NCBI GenBank assembly: GCA_949128025.1 | Contig: CASBRD010000233.1 | Span: forward strand, 1 to 38,250 | From: Oscillatoriales cyanobacterium PMM_0008 | GTDB taxonomy: Bacteria > Cyanobacteriota > Cyanobacteriia > Cyanobacteriales > Aerosakkonemataceae | Direction: 5' to 3' | DNA length: 38,250 nucleotides | Part shown: in pieces, positions 3,965-19,805 of the stretch | How the letters are laid out: every line of letters begins with the position of its first letter | How positions within the stretch are numbered: position 1 is the first letter of the stretch | Program-made: the position numbers and the translations under genes | The notes under the pieces: model-generated | Database searches by the model: none | Told to the model about the DNA's origin: nothing | The model's input: the letters and a program-made list of their open reading frames with translations, nothing else

Positions 3965-4459
3965 TTAGAATAAGGAAAGCTGCTCTGCCAGGACAAATTT
4001 TTCCTTAATCCGCTCATGGCCTGCATTCAGCGCCTCTACATAGTCGTCTGGTACAAACCATTCAGCTTTCCAGTTCAGGGTAAGTTGAGGGACAACAAAG
4101 CCCGGAAACTCTTGTTGTAGTTCATCATAGGAACGGATATTGAGAGTAAAACCGCCTTCGCTTTTGATTCCAAATGCCATTTCAACCCCGGTAAAATAGC
4201 TGTCATAGTCCGGGCGAGCGATGCCAAGTAATGGCGCATATTCATCCCACATTTGAGTCACAGGACAGGAAAACGTTTTTCCTGCCATAAACGCGCCAGC
4301 AATCCGATTATTAGGGGCTGTCTCATATAAAAGCACCAATGTACCCGGACGGATACCCAAATCGCGCTTGCGTAACTCCATCTGTTTTGTTCCAGAAATC
4401 AGCCGCTCAGCATAAATCCGCTTTATACTCAAAACTTTAAGCCATTGATAGTAAGCCAC
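3965..4459 (-). CDS. ASCH-domain protein (PUA-like fold)
   Basis: A 164-aa protein with the opening pattern of ASCH domains: LSIKRIYAERLISGTKQMELRKRD, followed by the strand LVLLYETAPNNRIAGAFMAG. ASCH proteins have a PUA-like RNA-binding fold, and one member, E. coli YqfB, hydrolyses N4-acetylcytidine. The C-terminal half (TLNIRSYDELQQEF...VPQLTLNWKAEWF) is less familiar. It starts at GTG 4459, sharing one base with the stop of the upstream three-domain gene (TAGTG), so the two are translationally coupled and likely work together. Whether it binds or cuts a modified nucleotide cannot be told from sequence. Confidence 0.7.
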   Translation of the reverse strand: MAYYQWLKVLSIKRIYAERLISGTKQMELRKRDLGIRPGTLVLLYETAPNNRIAGAFMAGKTFSCPVTQMWDEYAPLLGIARPDYDSYFTGVEMAFGIKSEGGFTLNIRSYDELQQEFPGFVVPQLTLNWKAEWFVPDDYVEALNAGHERIKEKFVLAEQLSLF

Positions 4460-5973
4460 TACTCAACCCCCCTAATCTTCTTTACGGCCTCATAGGGAAC
4501 CCTTTGAAAAGACTGAGGTGGGCCATTGAGAATTTCCTTCTCTCTAGCTTCCTCAAGCATGATGGGTTGTTGATACAACATAAACCGCTTCAAGCTCAGG
4601 GATTGAATTTCCTTAGCTGAAGGATACATCCCGAAAAATTCAGTCTCGGATAGAACGCCTGAGTTCCCAAGTCGAGAAAACAGTTCCTTAGCAGTTCCTA
4701 TTTCGCGGGAAGTAATAACTGCCTCTCCAACAATTGCTGTTACCGGGGAACTGGCATAGATAAACACAGTAGAATCATCCAAGTCTGCCTCCACAAAACG
4801 TGGCGTACCAAAATATATCCATGACCGACCAACCCTTCTGATTAGAAAGGATGGTCGGACGGGTAGCATATAAAATTCATTCTCAATGCCGCATATTGCC
4901 GGGAAAACTAGAGATCCCCATTGAGAGCGGGAAAACTGCTTTCTTATCCCTTCAGCCTGCAATGTGATACCAGCAGACGTGGCAGTGCAGTGCCAAGAAC
5001 CACCGCTCTGAGCAATCGGCAGTGCAAACATCTCTTCCAACCCGCTGGGGAGCGGCAATAGGGAACGAGCGACTACTTCAACGTGAGCAGGTGTTTCCTG
5101 TGCTTGTGTCACCATAATTTTAGTCAAAAAGAGTTCATCTTCGCGATCGCGCCCGTAGCATTGTCTGCCCACCCCCTCCAATAGGAATCCAAAGCGATTG
5201 AAAAAACCAAGCAGGTCACGCCGAGCTGTGGACACCACCACACTAGCAAACCTCCTGATGCGCCACTGCTCCAAGCAACGTAGCATTAAGCGCTCACCCA
5301 CCTGTTCACCGCGAAACTGAGGCAAAATAAACAAGGTAGATAGCTTGGCACGGTGTTCTGACTTTTGCTTCCAAATCGCCAAGCCCATCCAGTCTTCCCC
5401 CTCTATAGCTACATTGATTACTGTATTCTCATCCGCAAGTGTCCGGTTCAGCCAACTCGCAAAGCCAGGATATTGAGGGGATAGAGCACTTTCAAGCTCT
5501 CTAATGAACGAGTCAGGGATCTGGTTTCGGGCCGTCGCTCCTAAAATGGTTCTGATACCGTAGGCTCTTTCCAGACGATCGAGGACTTCCTCGCGTGTCC
5601 CCGATTCCAATACACTATCAACCCGTCCAAAATACTGGAAGTCACGGATCAGGCTGCACCGTTCCAACTGCTCCAGAAATGTATCCAGCAAAGTCCGATT
5701 GTCAAATTTAAACCATTCCCTGCCTGGAGCATTATCTATCCATTGCCCGCACTGTTTCAGATGGTTGTGGATCAACATTTCTATCCCACGATCTGGGACG
5801 GCAACAGCACACAATAAAACGGGTTGCTCAGGGTTGGAAGTGCCCACCTGTGCGCTTACTCGTTCCGAAGCTGCCTTTTCTAATTGCTCACCAGTAGTAC
5901 GACCAATTTTTACGAGTAACCCTTCTTGTGGGTTCAAATAAGCTGGGAATGAATAGGCATAGATGATATCCAA
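4459..5973 (-). CDS. Three-domain protein: GIY-YIG-like, GNAT, ASCH-like
   Basis: A 504-aa fusion. Residues 1-105 look like a T5orf172/MUG113 member of the GIY-YIG nucleases: IIYAYSFP, VKIGRTT, a conserved-type Arg in ASERVSAQ, Glu in GIEMLIHNHL and the closing REWFKF. Residues about 175-287 look like a GNAT acetyltransferase: LSTLFILPQFRGEQVGERLM (acetyl-CoA loop), then FFNRFGF. Residues about 340-500 resemble a PUA/ASCH-like module (SWIYFGTPRF, STVFIYASSPVTAIVGEAVI, SLSLKRFMLYQQP). It is the first gene of a two-gene operon with the ASCH protein. I know of no described system with this exact set; domain limits are approximate and unverified. Confidence 0.65.
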   Translation of the reverse strand: MDIIYAYSFPAYLNPQEGLLVKIGRTTGEQLEKAASERVSAQVGTSNPEQPVLLCAVAVPDRGIEMLIHNHLKQCGQWIDNAPGREWFKFDNRTLLDTFLEQLERCSLIRDFQYFGRVDSVLESGTREEVLDRLERAYGIRTILGATARNQIPDSFIRELESALSPQYPGFASWLNRTLADENTVINVAIEGEDWMGLAIWKQKSEHRAKLSTLFILPQFRGEQVGERLMLRCLEQWRIRRFASVVVSTARRDLLGFFNRFGFLLEGVGRQCYGRDREDELFLTKIMVTQAQETPAHVEVVARSLLPLPSGLEEMFALPIAQSGGSWHCTATSAGITLQAEGIRKQFSRSQWGSLVFPAICGIENEFYMLPVRPSFLIRRVGRSWIYFGTPRFVEADLDDSTVFIYASSPVTAIVGEAVITSREIGTAKELFSRLGNSGVLSETEFFGMYPSAKEIQSLSLKRFMLYQQPIMLEEAREKEILNGPPQSFQRVPYEAVKKIRGVE

Positions 5974-6341: not shown

Positions 6342-6524
6342 TCATACCTCTACTTTAGCTTTTCGTAATTCTTCGATCGCAGCTTGTCGTCTTAATTCCT
6401 GCCTTATTCGCAATTTTTCATCTATCTCTGTTGCTAAATCGTACACTGCTTTAGCTTTCTGTTCAGCGTCTTTGGCTAGTTCCAGCAGTTTATCCAGTGT
6501 TTCATCATCCGGTAATTCTTTCAT
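6342..6524 (-). CDS. Small helical protein, cassette copy 1
   Basis: A 60-aa protein, mostly one or two charged helices (LDKLLELAKDAEQKAKAVYDLATEIDEKL). Its ATG overlaps the end of the 115-aa gene by four bases (ATGA). A strong Shine-Dalgarno (GGAGGAATTACA-ATG) lies inside the upstream gene. The copy at 6974 differs at only a handful of residues. No known domain is recognised. The overlapping pair of short genes resembles a toxin-antitoxin layout, but nothing in the sequence proves it. Confidence 0.65.
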   Translation of the reverse strand: MKELPDDETLDKLLELAKDAEQKAKAVYDLATEIDEKLRIRQELRRQAAIEELRKAKVEV

Positions 6525-6868
6525 TGTAATTCCTCCAAATTAGTGTTAATTTTTCTGACAGCTATTTTACTTTCAAGTACCCGACCTAGTAGCGTTCCCA
6601 ATTCTTCGCCAACATCCTGAATTTCCTCGGCTGTTGCATCGGGAACCTCAAGCCGTTCACGGGCGACCTGAATCCGTCTTCTGGAAATTTCTACGAACAA
6701 TAGGATGTTATTGAAAAAAGCAAAGAACTGAATCATTCTAGCATTATCTGGGAACCGAGACAATATAGGTCTGACTAAATTTAGTCCCTGCGTTGCATCA
6801 GCCTCAGTCTCGGCTAGTTCCTGGTTTAATCGTTCAATTAGATTCTGAATTTCTGATGGAATCGGCAT
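6521..6868 (-). CDS. 115-aa protein of unknown function, cassette copy 1
   Basis: A soluble helical protein starting MPIPSEIQNLIERLNQELAE. The central stretch (QGLNLVRPILSRFPDNARMI, then QFFAFFNN) is identical to that of the copy at 7153 apart from flanking changes, whereas the C-terminal third has diverged (RKINTNLEELQ against RQIISILRELQ). The next gene overlaps it by four bases. I do not recognise the family. High conservation in the middle with drift at the end suggests that the middle carries the function. Confidence 0.65.
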   Translation of the reverse strand: MPIPSEIQNLIERLNQELAETEADATQGLNLVRPILSRFPDNARMIQFFAFFNNILLFVEISRRRIQVARERLEVPDATAEEIQDVGEELGTLLGRVLESKIAVRKINTNLEELQ

Positions 6869-6973: not shown

Positions 6974-7156
6974 TCATCCCTCTACTTTAACTTTTCGTAA
7001 TTCCTCGATCGCAGCTTGTCTTCTTAATTCCTGCCTTATTCGCAATTTTTCATCTATTTCTGTTGCTAAATCGTACACTGCTTTAGCTTTCTGTTCAAAA
7101 TTTTTTGCCAATTCAAGCAGTTTATCCAGTGTTTCGTCATTCGGTAATTCTTTCAT
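6974..7156 (-). CDS. Small helical protein, cassette copy 2
   Basis: A 60-aa near-twin of the protein at 6342 (MKELPNDETLDKLLELAKNF...), with changes mainly around residues 6-20 and at the C-terminal tail (KVKVEG against KAKVEV). It overlaps the 115-aa gene by ATGA and has GAGGGAATTACA upstream as ribosome binding site. Function unknown. Confidence 0.65.
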   Translation of the reverse strand: MKELPNDETLDKLLELAKNFEQKAKAVYDLATEIDEKLRIRQELRRQAAIEELRKVKVEG

Positions 7157-7500
7157 TGTAATTCCCTCAAGATACTAATAATTTGTCTACCATCTATTTT
7201 AGCCTCTAGTACCCTACCCAGTAGGGTACTAGAGGCTTCCCCTACATCCTGAATATCCGCTGCTGTCGCATCAGTCGCTTCCAATCTCTCAACAGAAGTC
7301 TGAACTCTTCTTCTGGAAATTTCTACAAAGAGTAGGCCGTTATTGAAAAAAGCAAAGAACTGAATCATTCTAGCATTATCTGGGAAGCGAGACAATATAG
7401 GTCTGACTAAATTTAGTCCCTGCGTTGCATCAGTCTCAGTATCAGCTAGTTCTTGGTTTAATCGTTCAATTAGAGCTTGAATTTCTGATGGAATCGGCAT
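7153..7500 (-). CDS. 115-aa protein of unknown function, cassette copy 2
   Basis: A paralogue of the protein at 6521, and the first gene of the array in transcription order. The core GLNLVRPILSRFPDNARMIQ is kept while residues 75-115 have diverged. The start ATG follows AGGATGCTACTAA, identical to the leader of copy 1. A weak -10-like TATCCT lies further up near 7530. No domain recognised. Confidence 0.65.
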   Translation of the reverse strand: MPIPSEIQALIERLNQELADTETDATQGLNLVRPILSRFPDNARMIQFFAFFNNGLLFVEISRRRVQTSVERLEATDATAADIQDVGEASSTLLGRVLEAKIDGRQIISILRELQ

Positions 7501-7577: not shown

Positions 7578-8189
7578 CTAGACCTTCAAGATCTCCTCAA
7601 CAGTCAATTCCAGTTCTGGAAAAGTAGCAGATACAATTCTTTCATCACCTCTATAACCAGTTACTTGATAAACTCCATTCTCATCTAATAGATAAACAAA
7701 AACACTAGGAACCTTCGGATTACCCAAAAAATCCCTACTCCCAATAGCCAAATAATCTACAATCCAATATTCACGAATACCTAAACCTTGATATTCGTCT
7801 AATTTATCGATGTAATCATCTTCCCAATTAGTTGATACCACTTCCACAGCTAATTGCAAAGGTTCTCGCAAAGCCGAATAAGCCGAACGGTTGGAACGCC
7901 AGACATCTAAACTAACTACGCTGACATCGGGAAAACGTCCCTGTTCTCTACCATTTTTGCTCAATGTGGCAACCATAATTCTCCCAGACACCTTGTAGTT
8001 CAAACTCAGTCGGTCAACTTCTCTATCAAATTGTTCGGTAATAAAATCTGCGATATCATCGTGCTGTCTAGTTGCTAGTATTTTCACAATTTCTCCATCG
8101 ACTAATTCATAGCGACCATCGTCAGGATATTGTGCCAGAAATTGCTCAAAAGTGAGCTTTTGCTTTGACTGAGTGGAAATTGCAGTCAT
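7578..8189 (-). CDS. Uma2-family putative restriction endonuclease (DUF820)
   Basis: A 203-aa protein of the very abundant cyanobacterial Uma2/DUF820 family, which has a PD-(D/E)XK nuclease fold. Visible motifs are RYELVDGEIVKI, FPDVSVV, LAVEVVSTNWEDDY and DKLDEYQGLGIREYWIVD, which include the Asp, Glu and Lys of the putative active site. The frame is open to 8285, but ATG 8189 gives the standard N-terminus (MTAISTQSKQKLTFEQFLAQ). Activity is unproven for almost all members. A second member lies at 22145. Confidence 0.85.
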   Translation of the reverse strand: MTAISTQSKQKLTFEQFLAQYPDDGRYELVDGEIVKILATRQHDDIADFITEQFDREVDRLSLNYKVSGRIMVATLSKNGREQGRFPDVSVVSLDVWRSNRSAYSALREPLQLAVEVVSTNWEDDYIDKLDEYQGLGIREYWIVDYLAIGSRDFLGNPKVPSVFVYLLDENGVYQVTGYRGDERIVSATFPELELTVEEILKV

Positions 8190-8291
8190 GCTGTTTACCT
8201 GTGGTGTGGGAGCGAGAAACTTATAGCTATATTTTATTGAAATCCCAGACAATCTAGAAATTATAGCAGTTCTCAATTTTATCAAATAAAA

Positions 8292-8381: not shown

Positions 8382-8395
8382 TCAATCTGTAAGTC

Positions 8396-8724
8396 TTTCA
8401 GGTAAGATATAAGGTCGGACGCTTCTAGACGAATGGCAAAATCCAAGTTGCCTACACTCGGCGTTAACATTGACCATAGCCACCATCCGCCAAGTGCGTC
8501 CCACGTCGCGGCGGTTTGGGCAAAACCCCTGCATCTGTCCTTAGATGCGATACACAGATTTGACTATTTTGTCAATAGAAAAACCAAATTGATTGAATTG
8601 CAAACAGGAAATATGCAGAAGCAGATGATAAAACCAGTCAAAAGAGAACATAAAAGGTGTTAGTCTGTGGGTGGGAGCAAGCGCGAGCATCTGGTTTACG
8701 AGTAAATGCCGGACAAGCTATCAC
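8396..8724 (+). pseudogene. pdxJ: Decayed partial copy of pdxJ with its leader
   Basis: The 31 bases from 8396 are identical to the leader of intact pdxJ at 11988. The start of the coding region is then identical for 37 bases (8440-8476 against 12030-12066), encoding [10 protein letters not shown]. After that come small indels, a loss of roughly 370 bases, and two more recognisable pieces: KTKLIELQTGNMQKQ (near 8580; intact [15 protein letters not shown]) and a piece near 8690 matching [10 protein letters not shown]. The reading frame is broken, so no PdxJ can be made. The near-perfect 5' end beside a heavily decayed rest points to recombination or gene conversion at this end. Confidence 0.9.
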
Positions 8725-8760
8725 CTAAAATAAAAGATATATTTGGCAAGGAAATAACTG

Positions 8761-10326
8761 ATGACTCAAAGTGAAGCAGAAGTACGTTCTCAGAAAGTGG
8801 AACAATTGCGATCGCAAGGTATAGAACCTTATCCCAGCGAATCATATCAACGATCGCACACCACGCAGCAAGTTAGGGAATTATTTAGTCAACCTGGAAA
8901 AGAACTCAACAACGGAGTAACCGATCCAGAGGAACTCTCTATTCGGGTTTGTGGTCGCATTACCTCGAAGCGCGATAGTGGTAGCATTATCTTTATTGAT
9001 CTGAAAGATGCCACGGATAGAATTCAACTCAAAATCGAGAAAAAATTAGTCAAAGGCGACCCAGGTATTGCTTTCAAACAAATTGAAAAACTACTGGATG
9101 TAGGAGATTTTGTTGGCGCTGAAGGTATTGGCTGTCGGACAAATCGCGGCGAATTATCAATCCAAGTTCGCGAACTGAAACTGTTATCAAAAGCGACAAT
9201 TCCATTTCCAGATGCCTATTACGGAGTCAATGATCCAGAAACTTGTCGCCGTCATCGAGAAATGGATTTGGCGGGAAATCCAGAATCTTTTAATCGCTTT
9301 GTCCTCCGCAGTCGCATCGTTCAAAGTATTCGCTCATATCTCTGCGATGCTGGTTTTTATGAAATAGAAACTCCTGTTTTGCAAGCAATTTATGGAGGTG
9401 CGGCGGCTCGACCGTTTATCACCCACCATAATGCTTTAGATGTGGATTTATATCTGCGAATTGCAACGGAATTGTTTCTAAAACGGGCAGTTTGTGGGGG
9501 ATTTGAGCGTGTTTTTGAGTTAGGAAGAGTATTTAGAAATGAGGGTGTTGATAGTACCCACAATCCTGAATTCACATCCTTAGAAGTTTACCAATCCTAT
9601 GCAGATTATTTTGACATTTTGGGAGTGGTTGAAGATGTGATCTGCTTTGCGGCTGCGGCTGTTTTTGGGGATAAGAAACAAATTGAATACCAAGGACAGT
9701 TAATTAATCTCGATCGCCAATATGATTACAGCGAAAAATATGCTGGGTTTAGCGGTAAACATTGGCAAGTTAAGACAATGGTGGAAGCTGTAAAAGATGA
9801 AACTAAGTTAGATTTTGATGTGCTAGAATTAGGGGATGCGATCGCAGCCGCTGAAAAACTAGGATTGCACCTTGCCAACTTAGACAAACAAAGTTTGGGT
9901 TATGTGCTTTATGCAGTGTTCGATCGGCTAGTTGCTTCAACTTTAATTCAGCCAACTTTCATCATTGACTTCCCTGTAGAAGTGAGTCCATTAGCCAAAG
10001 GACATCGCAGCAAACCAGGTTTTGTTGAAAGATTTGAACTATTTATCAATGGTACGGAATACTCTAATGGATTTTCAGAATTGAACGATCCAAAAGAGCA
10101 AAGAAAGCGGTTTGAAGAACAATTAGCGCAGAAAAATGCCGGGGATGATGAAGCACATCCAATGGATGAAGATTTTATTGAAGCTTTATCTTTGGGAATG
10201 CCAAATTGTGCCGGAATGGGAATAGGAGTAGACCGATTGGTGATGCTGTTGACTAATACTCAAAGTATTCGAGATGTGGTGATGTTTCCAACGATGCGTC
10301 CGATCAAAGATGGTTCAAATCCGTAA
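8761..10326 (+). CDS. Class II lysyl-tRNA synthetase-like protein
   Basis: A 521-aa class II LysRS with an N-terminal OB fold (about 60-155) and a catalytic core. Clear family blocks are PVLQAIYGGAAARPFITHHN, DVDLYLRIATELFLKR, FERVFELGRVFRNEGVDSTH, NPEFTSLEVYQSYADY and the C-terminal GMGIGVDRLVMLLT. The motif 1 region departs from the usual RYVDLI wording (RRHREMDLAGN), and the linker EVSPLAKGHRSKPG is also slightly unusual. It may be the cell's only LysRS or an accessory copy; the window cannot decide. Its placement between two pdxJ copies and ahead of the TOPRIM/protease pair makes an acquired second copy plausible. Confidence 0.85.
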   Translation: MTQSEAEVRSQKVEQLRSQGIEPYPSESYQRSHTTQQVRELFSQPGKELNNGVTDPEELSIRVCGRITSKRDSGSIIFIDLKDATDRIQLKIEKKLVKGDPGIAFKQIEKLLDVGDFVGAEGIGCRTNRGELSIQVRELKLLSKATIPFPDAYYGVNDPETCRRHREMDLAGNPESFNRFVLRSRIVQSIRSYLCDAGFYEIETPVLQAIYGGAAARPFITHHNALDVDLYLRIATELFLKRAVCGGFERVFELGRVFRNEGVDSTHNPEFTSLEVYQSYADYFDILGVVEDVICFAAAAVFGDKKQIEYQGQLINLDRQYDYSEKYAGFSGKHWQVKTMVEAVKDETKLDFDVLELGDAIAAAEKLGLHLANLDKQSLGYVLYAVFDRLVASTLIQPTFIIDFPVEVSPLAKGHRSKPGFVERFELFINGTEYSNGFSELNDPKEQRKRFEEQLAQKNAGDDEAHPMDEDFIEALSLGMPNCAGMGIGVDRLVMLLTNTQSIRDVVMFPTMRPIKDGSNP

Positions 10327-10529: not shown

Positions 10530-11306
10530 ATGCAAGATGGCTCAATCCAACTTCTTGTCAAAACGGAAAAAGATATCCAGATCGTGACTTGGATTTTAGA
10601 AGCTGCTGGATATCCTATAGAGAAAATCAAACTTAATGCGATTAGCGGTCATAAAAACCTTAAAGAGTTTTTAAAAGGTCTACCTTCTGATATTGCAGAA
10701 AGTTGTGCAGTTCTAGTTGATTCAGACGCTGGAAGTGTCCCCGATGCTGTATCTAGTGCTAGAAGAAAGTTAAGTAATCCACCTGTAAAAGTTTTCTGTG
10801 CGATGAAAGAAATAGAGGCTTGGCTTTTTGCAGATGATATCACAGCACTAGAGAATACAAAAACTCAATGGGGGCGGGAAGTGATACCTACGCTTCCATT
10901 ACCAGAAGATATCGCTACTCCCAAAATCCATGCGGAATTGGCTTTTGGAAAAAATTTCAATTCCTGGGATTTTCTTAAGAATATCAATATTGATAGAGCT
11001 TCGGCAAGATCGCCTTCCCTGCGTGAATTTTTGACAGGTATCAAAAATATGTTGGTAGCACAACCAACACCAGGATTACAAAGCGTTTCTCGTAACATCA
11101 GTCGGGATGTTTTCTCTGGACTTATCCGGGAAGTTCTACCTGCAAACACAGTAATTTGGCGAACTGCAAATGGAGAATCATTTACAGCAGATGAACTTCG
11201 GAAGCAAATTGAGGAAGGTACAGATATTGGTCAACAATATGCCTCAGATGTACTTCGAGTAGCGAGGGATTTTCTTAAGAGAATGGCTAATCGGAGAGAA
11301 TCTTAA
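10530..11306 (+). CDS. TOPRIM-like protein (DUF4276/OLD-type), first gene of a pair
   Basis: A 258-aa protein. The first 110 residues look like a TOPRIM fold of the kind found beside ABC-type ATPases: LLVKTEKD with a candidate catalytic Glu13, AVLVDSDAGS with Asp64 and Asp66, and the family hallmark KEIEAWLFADD at about 93-103. The rest is helical, with an Arg/Lys-rich tail (ARDFLKRMANRRES). TOPRIM domains of this sort usually cut or nick nucleic acid. The usual ATPase partner is missing; the next gene, overlapping by one base (TAATG), encodes a predicted cysteine protease. Family assignment is by motif reading only. Confidence 0.6.
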   Translation: MQDGSIQLLVKTEKDIQIVTWILEAAGYPIEKIKLNAISGHKNLKEFLKGLPSDIAESCAVLVDSDAGSVPDAVSSARRKLSNPPVKVFCAMKEIEAWLFADDITALENTKTQWGREVIPTLPLPEDIATPKIHAELAFGKNFNSWDFLKNINIDRASARSPSLREFLTGIKNMLVAQPTPGLQSVSRNISRDVFSGLIREVLPANTVIWRTANGESFTADELRKQIEEGTDIGQQYASDVLRVARDFLKRMANRRES

Positions 11307-11953
11307 TGATCTTCTTTGTCCCCGCATACGATCTATCGACCCAGGCAAATCTGACTATTGCGAAGCTAATCATCACATCAAATTGTGTCACGCTATTCGA
11401 GAAAAAAGCAACAAAACAGGAACTCATATTAGCGTTGTGTAAGGCTGACGTGCCTCTCTTCGCGATGTCTCACGGTGTTCCTGATGCCTTGAAAGCCCAA
11501 AATGGGGAGGTCGCCCTTTCCAAGAATGATGTACACCTGCTAGGTGAACGTCAAATTTACGCATTTGCTTGCCACACAGCAGCTGAACTCGGCAAAGATG
11601 CGGCAAACAAAGGAAGTATCTGGTGGGGATATTCAGATACGATTTCATGTGCGATCGATTTGCCTGCTTTGAGTTCTGTCTTTACTGATATATTTACGTT
11701 TATTAGGGATAATTTTGAGACAGCTACATCTCCTGAAGATAGGCAGACAATGCTTGAAGAACTTAAGAAAAAGTGCGAGGCAGCACAGGATGAGGTCGAT
11801 CGCATTGATTCTGAAATTGAAATTCCTGAAATCATGGAGGTGTATAGAACACTACGTCATATTTGGGATAGACTCCGAATCTGGATACCTAATGCTCAAC
11901 AACCAGAACACCATCCACAGGTTTCAAGTCCTTCTCTTCCTTGGGGTAATTAG
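11306..11953 (+). CDS. Predicted caspase-like cysteine protease, second gene of a pair
   Basis: A 215-aa protein with the two landmarks of the caspase/CHAT fold: a hydrophobic strand ending in His (PLFAMSHG, His56) and a second strand ending in Cys (IYAFACHTAAELG, Cys89), followed by GSIWWGYSD. The spacing of about 33 residues fits a minimal catalytic domain. Residues 145-175 are likely coiled-coil (TMLEELKKKCEAAQDEVDRI), a possible surface for a partner. The start overlaps the TOPRIM stop by one base, with GGAGAG as ribosome binding site. A protease tied to a nucleic-acid enzyme suggests an abortive-infection type system; this is inference. Confidence 0.6.
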   Translation: MIFFVPAYDLSTQANLTIAKLIITSNCVTLFEKKATKQELILALCKADVPLFAMSHGVPDALKAQNGEVALSKNDVHLLGERQIYAFACHTAAELGKDAANKGSIWWGYSDTISCAIDLPALSSVFTDIFTFIRDNFETATSPEDRQTMLEELKKKCEAAQDEVDRIDSEIEIPEIMEVYRTLRHIWDRLRIWIPNAQQPEHHPQVSSPSLPWGN

Positions 11954-12038: not shown

Positions 12039-12758
12039 TTGCCTACACTCGGCGTTAACATTGACCACATTGCCACGATCCGCCAAGCACGCCGCACGAT
12101 CGAACCTGACCCCGTTGCAGCGGCGGTATTGGCGGAACTCGCAGGTGCTGATGGCATTACCGTCCATCTGCGGGAGGATAGACGGCATATCCAAGACCGC
12201 GACGTACTCATATTGCGGCAGACGGTACGCACTCATCTAAACTTGGAGATGGCGGCTACTGATGAAATGGTGGCGATCGCACTTGACATCAAACCAGACT
12301 ACATCACCCTCGTACCCGAACGTCGCGAAGAAGTCACCACCGAAGGCGGACTCGATGTGGCCGGACAAATCCAGCGCATGAGTGATATTGTGGCTAAATT
12401 ACAAGATGCCGGAATTCCCGTCAGTTTGTTTATCGATGCCGAACCAGCACAAATTTATGCGGCTGTCAAGGTAAAAGCAAAATTTATTGAACTGCATACC
12501 GGCAAATATGCTGAGGCGCACGATGAAGCGAATCGGGAGAAGGAATTAGAGGTGTTAGCCAAAGGGTGCGAATATGCGATCGCATCTGGTTTGCGAGTAA
12601 ACGCCGGACACGGACTCACATACTGGAATGTTTACCCAGTTGCCTGCCTAAAAGGTATGGAAGAACTCAACATTGGTCATACAATTATTAGTCGAGCCGT
12701 TTTAGTCGGACTAGAACGAGCCGTCCGCGAGATGAAACAGGCAATACTCGGTCATTAG
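12039..12758 (+). CDS. pdxJ: Pyridoxine 5'-phosphate synthase PdxJ
   Basis: A 239-aa cytosolic enzyme that condenses 1-deoxyxylulose 5-phosphate with 3-amino-2-oxopropyl phosphate to give pyridoxine 5'-phosphate, the last step of the DXP-dependent vitamin B6 route. All family blocks are present: [16 protein letters not shown] at the start, [30 protein letters not shown], the glutamate-bearing [22 protein letters not shown] and the closing [18 protein letters not shown]. Length is normal. The start is TTG with a good AAGGAG; there is no in-frame ATG nearby. A broken copy lies 3.6 kb upstream. Confidence 0.95.
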
Positions 12759-17426: not shown

Positions 17427-18338
17427 ATGGCAGAGGTTATGGAAAAACCTATTCGCATTCTGTTGCAGACGACCATTCCGGCGACAGAAGATGACTGGAG
17501 TATCGATCGCTTCTCATTGTTACGCGACTATCTCGCTTCTGTCAAAGACGACGAGGGGAACCACCTCTTTCAAGTCACGTCGCGTAACCGAGAATCGGAC
17601 GCTGAAGGCAATGACCCCATTTTGAGCAACCTCGGCGAGTCGGATTTCGACGAGTTATGGTTGTTTGCAGTCGATGTCGGTGACGGTTTGACAGAAAAAG
17701 ATCGTGCAGGCATTACGGCATTTCATAACCGTGGCGGTGGTCTTTTGGCGACGCGAGATCATCAGGATTTAGGTTCGTCTATCTGCAATCTCTGCGGTGT
17801 TGGTGCGGCACACTTTTTTCAAAACTATAATCCCGATCCAGACGAATCTCGTCGCGTCATTGATGACATCTACACGAAGAATATTTCTTGGCCGAACTAT
17901 CACTCTGGACGCAATGGCGATTATCAAAAAATTACGCCCAGCGAACCAGTTCACGAATTATTGAAAAATTTGGCTTCGCCTTCGGGAGTAATTGAATTTT
18001 TCCCGGCACATCCCCACGAAGGCGCGGTAGGAGTTCCGCCAGGCGAAACCAACGGGCGTGTAATTGCGATCGGCACTAGCCAGGTTTCGGGACGCGAATT
18101 TAATCTTGCCGTTGCCTTTGAATGGCCTAAAGATGCTGATGGTAACGGGCAAGGACGCGGGGTGGCAGAATCCACTTTCCATCATTTCTGCGATTATAAT
18201 TGGAATGCGGATATAGGTTGTCCCAGCTTTGTATCCGAACCTCCCGGTAATACAATGAAGACAGAAACACGCGCTTTAGAAGATATCAAAACTTATGTGC
18301 GTAACGTAGGTTTGTGGTTGGCAAATAAAACGCCATAA
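17427..18338 (+). CDS. ThuA/class I glutamine amidotransferase-like protein
   Basis: A 303-aa soluble protein. The opening PIRILLQTTIPATEDDWSID, the strand FDELWLFAVD, then LTEKDRAGITAFHNRGGGLL and ATRDHQDLG follow the flavodoxin-like ThuA/GATase I pattern, in which a loop after the GGG strand binds the ligand. There is a His/Cys-bearing middle (SSICNLCGVGAAHFF) and a late HHFCDYNWN, possibly a metal site. GATGAGG stands before ATG 17427. It lies 66 bp ahead of the reverse transcriptase on the same strand with only a repeat between, so it may be the retron's accessory protein; no such retron effector is known to me. Confidence 0.6.
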   Translation: MAEVMEKPIRILLQTTIPATEDDWSIDRFSLLRDYLASVKDDEGNHLFQVTSRNRESDAEGNDPILSNLGESDFDELWLFAVDVGDGLTEKDRAGITAFHNRGGGLLATRDHQDLGSSICNLCGVGAAHFFQNYNPDPDESRRVIDDIYTKNISWPNYHSGRNGDYQKITPSEPVHELLKNLASPSGVIEFFPAHPHEGAVGVPPGETNGRVIAIGTSQVSGREFNLAVAFEWPKDADGNGQGRGVAESTFHHFCDYNWNADIGCPSFVSEPPGNTMKTETRALEDIKTYVRNVGLWLANKTP

Positions 18339-18404
18339 CCGGAATTTCAGATGGCAAATTTCACATTTGCAATCCAAAATCTAAAATCCCCAATCCAAAA
18401 TCGA

Positions 18405-19805
18405 ATGACTGACCAACCCAGAACCCGTCAAGAACTGTACGATCGCATCCGCAAATCTTCTAGAGAAGAAGTTATCCTTGAAGAGATGATTCGGCTTGGG
18501 TTCTGGCCCGCCCAAGGGGAAATGCCGCAAGATCCAGCTGATGAAATTCGTCGTCGTGGGGAAATACAGGGGGAACTTAGCGACCTCTACAAGCAAAACC
18601 GCATCCTCAACAACGAAGAGGCACTCAAGAAGCAGTTATATCAGCAAAGACTGGAGGAGTCGCGGCGCAAGCGTCAGGAAACGAAAGAACGTCGGGAACG
18701 GGAAAGACAAGAACGCGCAGAAGCTTGGCGACAAAGGAAGCAAGAGGAGATTGTTTATTTAGGCGATCGCGTTTCCGGCGGACTCAACTATACCGAATGC
18801 AATCAAGAACGGTTGCAAAGTTATGGCTTGCCGATTTATAACACAGCCGAACAAATTGCCGCCGCGATGGGAATTAGCATCGGACAATTGCGCTTTCTCG
18901 CCTTTTCCCGCAAAACATCTCCAATTTCTCACTACATTCGCTTCAGAATACCTAAAAAGACGGGAGGCGATCGCATCATTTCAGCCCCAATGCCACGCCT
19001 AAAACAAGCGCAACATTGGCTACTTACTAATATACTAGAAAAAGTCGAACTTCACAAAGCCGCCCACGGCTTTCGCCAAGGACGTTCAATTGTTAGTAAC
19101 GCACAGCCTCACGTCGGTGCAGAAGTTGTAATCAACTTCGATTTAAAGAACTTTTTTCCTTCAATTTCCTATAAGCGAGTCAAAGGACTTTTGCACGCGA
19201 TCGGCTATTCAGAAGCCACCGCCACAATTTTTGGTTTACTCTGTACAGAACCCGATATTGAGGAAGTGGAAATAGATGGAAAAACCTACTACGTAGCGTT
19301 GAGCGATCGCCACTTACCCCAAGGCGCACCCACTAGCCCAGCCATTACTAATATACTCTGCCGCCGACTCGATCGCCGCCTCACCCAAATGGCAGAAGAA
19401 TTGGGTTTTGTTTATACTCGCTACGCCGACGACCTAACTTTTTCTGCCTCTGGCGATCGTCTCCGCCATATTTGTAACGTATTGAGACGCACAGAGTCAA
19501 TAGTCGAACACGAAGGTTTTATCATTAATGAAGAGAAAACCCGAATCCTTCGCAATTCGAGACAGCAAGATGTAACTGGAGTGATAGTTAATAATAAACC
19601 TAATGTTGATAAGAAAACACTCAAACGCTTTCGCGCCACTTTGTATCAGATAGATAAAGATGGCTTAGAAGGGAAACGCTGGGGTCATTCTTCAGATTTA
19701 ATTGCCTCAATTCAGGGATTTGCCAACTTTGTAGCAATGGTTAATCCCGAACTTGGTGCAGAGTTTAAAGAACAGGTGAGACGAATTAGAGAAAAATATA
19801 AGTAG
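18405..19805 (+). CDS. Retron-type reverse transcriptase with long N-terminal extension
   Basis: A 466-aa reverse transcriptase. From ATG 18405, the retron hallmark NAQPH is near 232, the first catalytic Asp in INFDLKNFFPSI near 245, LPQGAPTSPAITN near 304, the catalytic YADD at 340-343 and the VTG triad near 390. NAxxH and VTG together mark retrons rather than group II introns or DGRs. Residues 1-120 are an extra region with a helical, Arg/Glu-rich stretch (RRKRQETKERRERERQERAE); residues 150-175 hold an HTH-like AEQIAAAMGISIGQLRFLAF. The frame extends to ATG 18351, but that part is spacer repeat. The msr-msd RNA has not been located. Confidence 0.88.
   Translation: MTDQPRTRQELYDRIRKSSREEVILEEMIRLGFWPAQGEMPQDPADEIRRRGEIQGELSDLYKQNRILNNEEALKKQLYQQRLEESRRKRQETKERRERERQERAEAWRQRKQEEIVYLGDRVSGGLNYTECNQERLQSYGLPIYNTAEQIAAAMGISIGQLRFLAFSRKTSPISHYIRFRIPKKTGGDRIISAPMPRLKQAQHWLLTNILEKVELHKAAHGFRQGRSIVSNAQPHVGAEVVINFDLKNFFPSISYKRVKGLLHAIGYSEATATIFGLLCTEPDIEEVEIDGKTYYVALSDRHLPQGAPTSPAITNILCRRLDRRLTQMAEELGFVYTRYADDLTFSASGDRLRHICNVLRRTESIVEHEGFIINEEKTRILRNSRQQDVTGVIVNNKPNVDKKTLKRFRATLYQIDKDGLEGKRWGHSSDLIASIQGFANFVAMVNPELGAEFKEQVRRIREKYK

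Follow-up and report, generated by a model that had tools for sequence, protein, structure and literature searches.

A TOPRIM-like gene overlapping a remote CHAT/caspase-like gene in a cyanobacterial genome: a rare pair and possible protease–nuclease cassette

Organisation of the locus

The window, that is, the whole stretch of 38,250 nucleotides analysed here, comes from the genome of Oscillatoriales cyanobacterium PMM_0008 (G000) and carries two adjacent genes, named P1 and P2 in this work. They are flanked on the same strand by lysS (8761-10326), located before the pair, and pdxJ (12039-12758), located after it. The initial annotation had reported both open reading frames and a one-base overlap between them, as is seen in the sequence: the last base of the P1 stop codon TAA (11304-11306) is the first base of the P2 ATG. 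Such a TAATG overlap makes translational coupling likely. The features of the locus are the following.

8395-8727, forward strand: decayed second pdxJ, upstream of lysS, in two pieces (8395-8505 and 8570-8727), comprising a leader with a 5' part, and a 3' part
10530-11306, forward strand: P1 gene, 258 residues, DUF4276 (PF14103)/HEC-01B, TOPRIM-like
10560-10562, forward strand: codon 11 of P1, AAA (Lys) in the window and GAA (Glu) in the sister genome G032
10719-10727, forward strand: DSD (DxD) motif of P1, residues 64-66
11055-11303, forward strand: C-terminal extension of P1, about residues 176-258, some 80 residues past the DUF4276 domain
11304-11308, forward strand: TAATG, P1 stop and P2 start with a one-base overlap
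11306-11953, forward strand: P2 gene, an orphan of 215 residues, with a remote CHAT/caspase-like core and a helical tail
11468-11476, forward strand: SHG motif of P2, residues 55-57, His56 being the predicted catalytic residue
11564-11578, forward strand: FACHT motif of P2, residues 87-91, Cys89 being the predicted nucleophile

P1, a DUF4276 protein with a substituted active-site residue

On sequence criteria, P1 can be firmly assigned to the DUF4276/HEC-01B family. It scores 32.4 bits against the Pfam DUF4276 model, above the gathering score of 30.2, and matches several HEC-01B models of PADLOC, among them PDLC04194 (1e-10). We take DUF4276 to be a TOPRIM-like family, on the basis of Pfam and of the motif pattern. 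The DSD motif at residues 64-66 and the KEIEAWLFADD motif at residues 93-103 are present as first described. In contrast, Glu13, initially proposed as the TOPRIM glutamate, is ruled out as the catalytic residue by alignment, the conserved VE(G/D) Glu aligning with residue 11. This placement comes from aligning P1 without gaps to the profile of the nearest DUF4276 subfamily, whose invariant Glu, in the VED motif, falls on residue 11; a wider alignment is looser. The window has Lys at this residue where G032 has Glu, through a single base change (GAA to AAA), and the other acidic residues of P1 (D15, D64, D66 and E94/E96 of EIEAW) are kept. The TOPRIM acidic set, composed of the N-terminal Glu, DxD and E.EAW, is complete in P1 of G032 and incomplete in P1 of the window genome, for which an intact metal site is not supported. 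The E11K substitution may weaken or abolish cleavage by the window protein. AriB loses its activity when its TOPRIM Glu is changed (E26A; PMC12409363), but in Bp OLD the substitution E400A alone did not discernibly alter cleavage (PMC6755086). With regard to the C-terminal extension of P1, sequence and profile searches, including searches of plasmids, found no relatives.

Two sets of DUF4276 loci from related genomes, 87 distinct loci in all, were examined, and in 76 of them the gene immediately upstream encodes a Walker-A ATPase (44/50 and 32/37, the second after removal of two duplicates and one frameless locus). Several of the remaining 11 loci are truncated, decayed or situated at contig ends. 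The absence of an OLD/RecF-type ATPase beside the window pair, already remarked on in the initial annotation, is thus unusual. No ATPase occupies the HEC-01A position next to the pair, P2 being the neighbour instead, and inspection of the 203-base gap separating lysS from P1 revealed no recognisable ATPase remnant.

P2, a probable remote CHAT/caspase-like protein

P2 was first likened to caspase/CHAT proteins on the basis of its SHG (His56) and FACHTAAE (Cys89) motifs, both of which are found as described. The protein has no match among curated families; in Pfam, its core is without a match up to E = 10, and the whole protein without a CHAT (PF12770) match. A profile was made with 29 CHAT domains taken from related genomes. 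Against it, the P2 core scores 10.6 bits. Of 2,000 shuffles that preserve its composition, one attains this value, and in a control comprising about 3,885 pieces cut from 2,137 other open reading frames, only pieces of a genuine CHAT protein outscored it. In the profile alignment, which spans the His region, His56 is in register with the CHAT catalytic His. Cys89 has no clean counterpart in this alignment, as the His-Cys spacing is only 33 residues in P2 and about 45 in the CHAT domains of relatives. Profile-profile comparison by hhalign gave a weak score (P = 0.014, one of 60 shuffles scoring higher), owing to a P2 alignment that is almost a single sequence. Likewise, homologues are too few to yield a usable structure model, single-sequence AlphaFold predictions of whole P2 and of its core (mean pLDDT of 48 and 39, respectively) being silent on the fold. 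We consider P2 to be probably a remote CHAT/caspase-like protein and putative protease. Hence, of the domain assignments first made, the TOPRIM-like one holds for P1, and the caspase/CHAT one holds for P2 as a remote resemblance resting on sequence statistics.

The region of P2 spanning about residues 130-190 is plausibly a coiled-coil tail, as judged from its composition and from weak coiled-coil-like matches. No sensor domain is visible in P1 or P2. Of note, 28 CHAT (PF12770) matches were counted in the window genome, and the number per genome rises to as many as 71 within its family.

Distribution of the pair

Within the order, of which 391 genomes were searched, P2 was matched only in the window genome, in G032 and, as a fragment, in G188. 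P1 matches were obtained in these same three genomes and in G234, where the match is interrupted by three stops, runs antisense to a long CRISPR-type open reading frame, and was judged a spurious, chance hit. A nucleotide pattern running from HG to FACHT retrieved the window genome and G032 only. The intact pair is therefore known from two genomes of one genus out of the 391, the third copy being a remnant. G188, a genome from a different family, has an open frame of some 104 codons in which a segment resembling P1 residues 151-175 (DINVEQAEARSSSLRVFLTGIREML) is followed immediately by one resembling P2 residues 25-90. We read this frame as a decayed copy of both genes with an internal in-frame deletion. 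The fragment is 40% identical to P2 and keeps His56, Cys89 and their motifs; three sequences, one of them a remnant, give little basis for judging how well the catalytic residues are conserved. The initial proposal was open to refutation by homologues that never occur together; in all three genomes with a P2-type sequence, both genes or their remnants are present in the same order. Since the remnant lies in another family and has this gene order, the pairing of P1 and P2 predates the genus.

No further homologues of P1 or P2 were found in genome contigs, plasmids and viral contigs. A DUF4276 relative used as query in viral contigs found nothing, and the P2 query gave a single chance-level match in phages (E = 0.8). 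A degenerate pattern from SHG to ACxTA picked out 49 stretches in viral contigs, all of which proved upon translation to be chance occurrences, and a phylum-wide profile search returned chance matches only, mostly onto the helical tail of P2.

Selection and history of the locus

Comparison of the window genome with G032 gave dN/dS values of 0.29 for P1 and 0.12 for P2, both below the neutral expectation (P = 0.012 and 0.003, respectively). Both genes have been under purifying selection since the two copies split. The dS of the pair amounts to 0.05-0.06, versus 0.11-0.48 for the neighbouring genes, which suggests a recent shared transfer or recombination.

In G074, a member of the same genus, the pair is missing and different DNA is found upstream of pdxJ, and in G125 a DUF2278 gene sits between lysS and pdxJ. 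The decayed second pdxJ of the window forms the far edge of a variable spot that contains lysS and the pair. In view of these three observations, the pair is best seen as cargo of a variable spot. The window lysS shares 87% identity with that of G108 and G125 and about 50% with that of G074, G055 and G140, and is probably a replacement acquired by transfer. A functional link of the pair with lysS, considered because AriB cuts tRNA-Lys, was set aside as a coincidence, since lysS of the same type is present without the pair in G108, G125 and G153.

Genomic neighbourhood

The window holds mostly housekeeping genes, together with a retron reverse transcriptase and a PDC-M11 pair located within about 6-7 kb on either side of P1-P2. 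The former (18351-19805, forward strand) is of type XIII (PADLOC RT_XIII, E = 7.6e-201) and is directly preceded by a 303-residue open reading frame without a Pfam family (17427-18338, forward strand). The latter consists of two adjacent genes forming the PADLOC candidate pair PDC-M11B and PDC-M11A (3965-5973, reverse strand), the larger of which carries T5orf172 and GNAT domains. A Uma2 family gene (7578-8285, reverse strand) matches the PADLOC candidate PDC-S03 (E = 7.1e-71). The proximity of the retron and of the PADLOC candidates is suggestive of a defence neighbourhood around the pair. In addition, a tandem duplication is seen on the reverse strand, with near-identical 115-residue open reading frames at 6521-6868 and 7153-7500, each followed by a similar 60-residue frame.

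Possible roles of P1 and P2

P1 and P2 form a genuine, rare pair on which selection acts, and possibly a new form of protease-nuclease pairing. Our preferred reading, tentative and put at somewhat less than an even chance, is that of a two-gene cassette in which the CHAT/caspase-like cysteine protease P2 would control the TOPRIM-type nuclease P1. Upon a stress or phage cue, P2 would cleave or release P1, its target being maybe the extra C-terminal extension of P1 or the helical tail of P2 itself. The freed P1 would then cut DNA or tRNA and the cell would stop, which would amount to an abortive-infection switch. In the window genome, E11K probably impairs or abolishes the cleavage step, and G032 has the canonical residue. 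A defence function, and the sense-and-kill role proposed at the outset, can be suggested by analogy with known systems. The bolder idea is that of a defence system not yet described and made of two genes, with a free-standing CHAT/caspase-like protease taking the place of the ATPase that usually gates the TOPRIM (DUF4276) nuclease; it appears to us somewhat unlikely.

These readings have to be weighed against three others. P1 might simply be a DUF4276 effector that has lost its ATPase, next to an unrelated P2, with no working two-protein system at this locus. Although this would account for the missing upstream ATPase, for E11K, for the decay of the G188 copy and for the rarity of the pair, it fits poorly with the co-occurrence of both genes across two bacterial families, their one-base overlap, the purifying selection acting on each of them and the lack of a recognised ATPase remnant between lysS and P1. 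We regard it as possible, if on the unlikely side. A second arrangement would resemble a toxin-antitoxin module, P1 being a toxic TOPRIM nuclease acting on RNA or DNA and P2 a non-proteolytic, CHAT-derived binder that restrains it. Two overlapping genes without a visible sensor domain would be in line with such a module, as would the existence of a tRNA-cutting TOPRIM effector, AriB of PARIS (PMC12409363). However, the retention of His56 and Cys89 in the diverged G188 fragment points to catalysis, and we find this arrangement unlikely.

Finally, P2 could be an orphan protein, helical or alpha/beta, in which the SHG and FACHT motifs arose by coincidence. The want of matches in curated families, the unusable fold predictions and the weak profile-profile score are all compatible with P2 not being caspase-like. 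Nevertheless, the CHAT-profile score was equalled by one shuffle in 2,000 and by no piece of a real non-CHAT protein, the order of a strand with His-Gly followed by a strand with Cys is, by eye, the correct one, and the two motifs are where diverged P2 copies agree best. Such a coincidence thus strikes us as quite improbable. If protease control of P1 by P2 proved true, the ATPase gate of TOPRIM effectors could be exchanged for a protease. As two closely similar copies differ by E11K, they offer a natural test of the need for nuclease activity.

Comparison with known systems

With its HEC-01B/DUF4276 profile, P1 is related to the pairs formed by an ATPase and a DUF4276 protein, such as HEC-01. 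Unlike in HEC-01, the upstream ATPase is missing, P2 is found downstream as the partner, and P1 is about 80 residues longer at its C-terminus. In PARIS, a TOPRIM nuclease, AriB, likewise serves as an immune effector alongside a partner protein (PMC12409363). This partner, AriA, is an ATPase, whereas P2 is a putative protease. In PARIS, AriA restrains AriB, which belongs to a different TOPRIM family from P1. As for CHAT proteases (PF12770; for example, TPR-CHAT/Csx29 of Craspase), the P2 core is similar through the His-Gly motif followed by AC.TA, but P2 has neither a PF12770 match nor TPRs, and its His-Cys spacing is shorter.

Gating of nucleases by proteases is a recent finding, made on MBL-fold enzymes whose partner is a trypsin-like protease or a caspase (PMC12799240). 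In one of them, canu (CanABC), a caspase-family protease activates a pro-nuclease, resulting in phage defence (PMC12799240). The window pair resembles canu by family assignment, with a gene for a caspase-family protease adjoining a nuclease gene. However, canu nucleases are MBL-fold proteins with insertions blocking the active site, whereas P1 is of the TOPRIM/DUF4276 type; an Ig-like fold is part of the canu caspase; the nuclease gene is downstream in canu and upstream in the window; and canu has a third gene, CanB, for two genes at the window locus. That a caspase-activated TOPRIM nuclease arose in parallel to canu forms part of the same, somewhat unlikely idea of an undescribed system. The authors who described these systems proposed that other enzyme classes may have similar gating (PMC12799240), and a pair made of a caspase-like and a TOPRIM protein would exemplify such gating beyond MBL-fold enzymes, in genomes rich in CHAT proteins.
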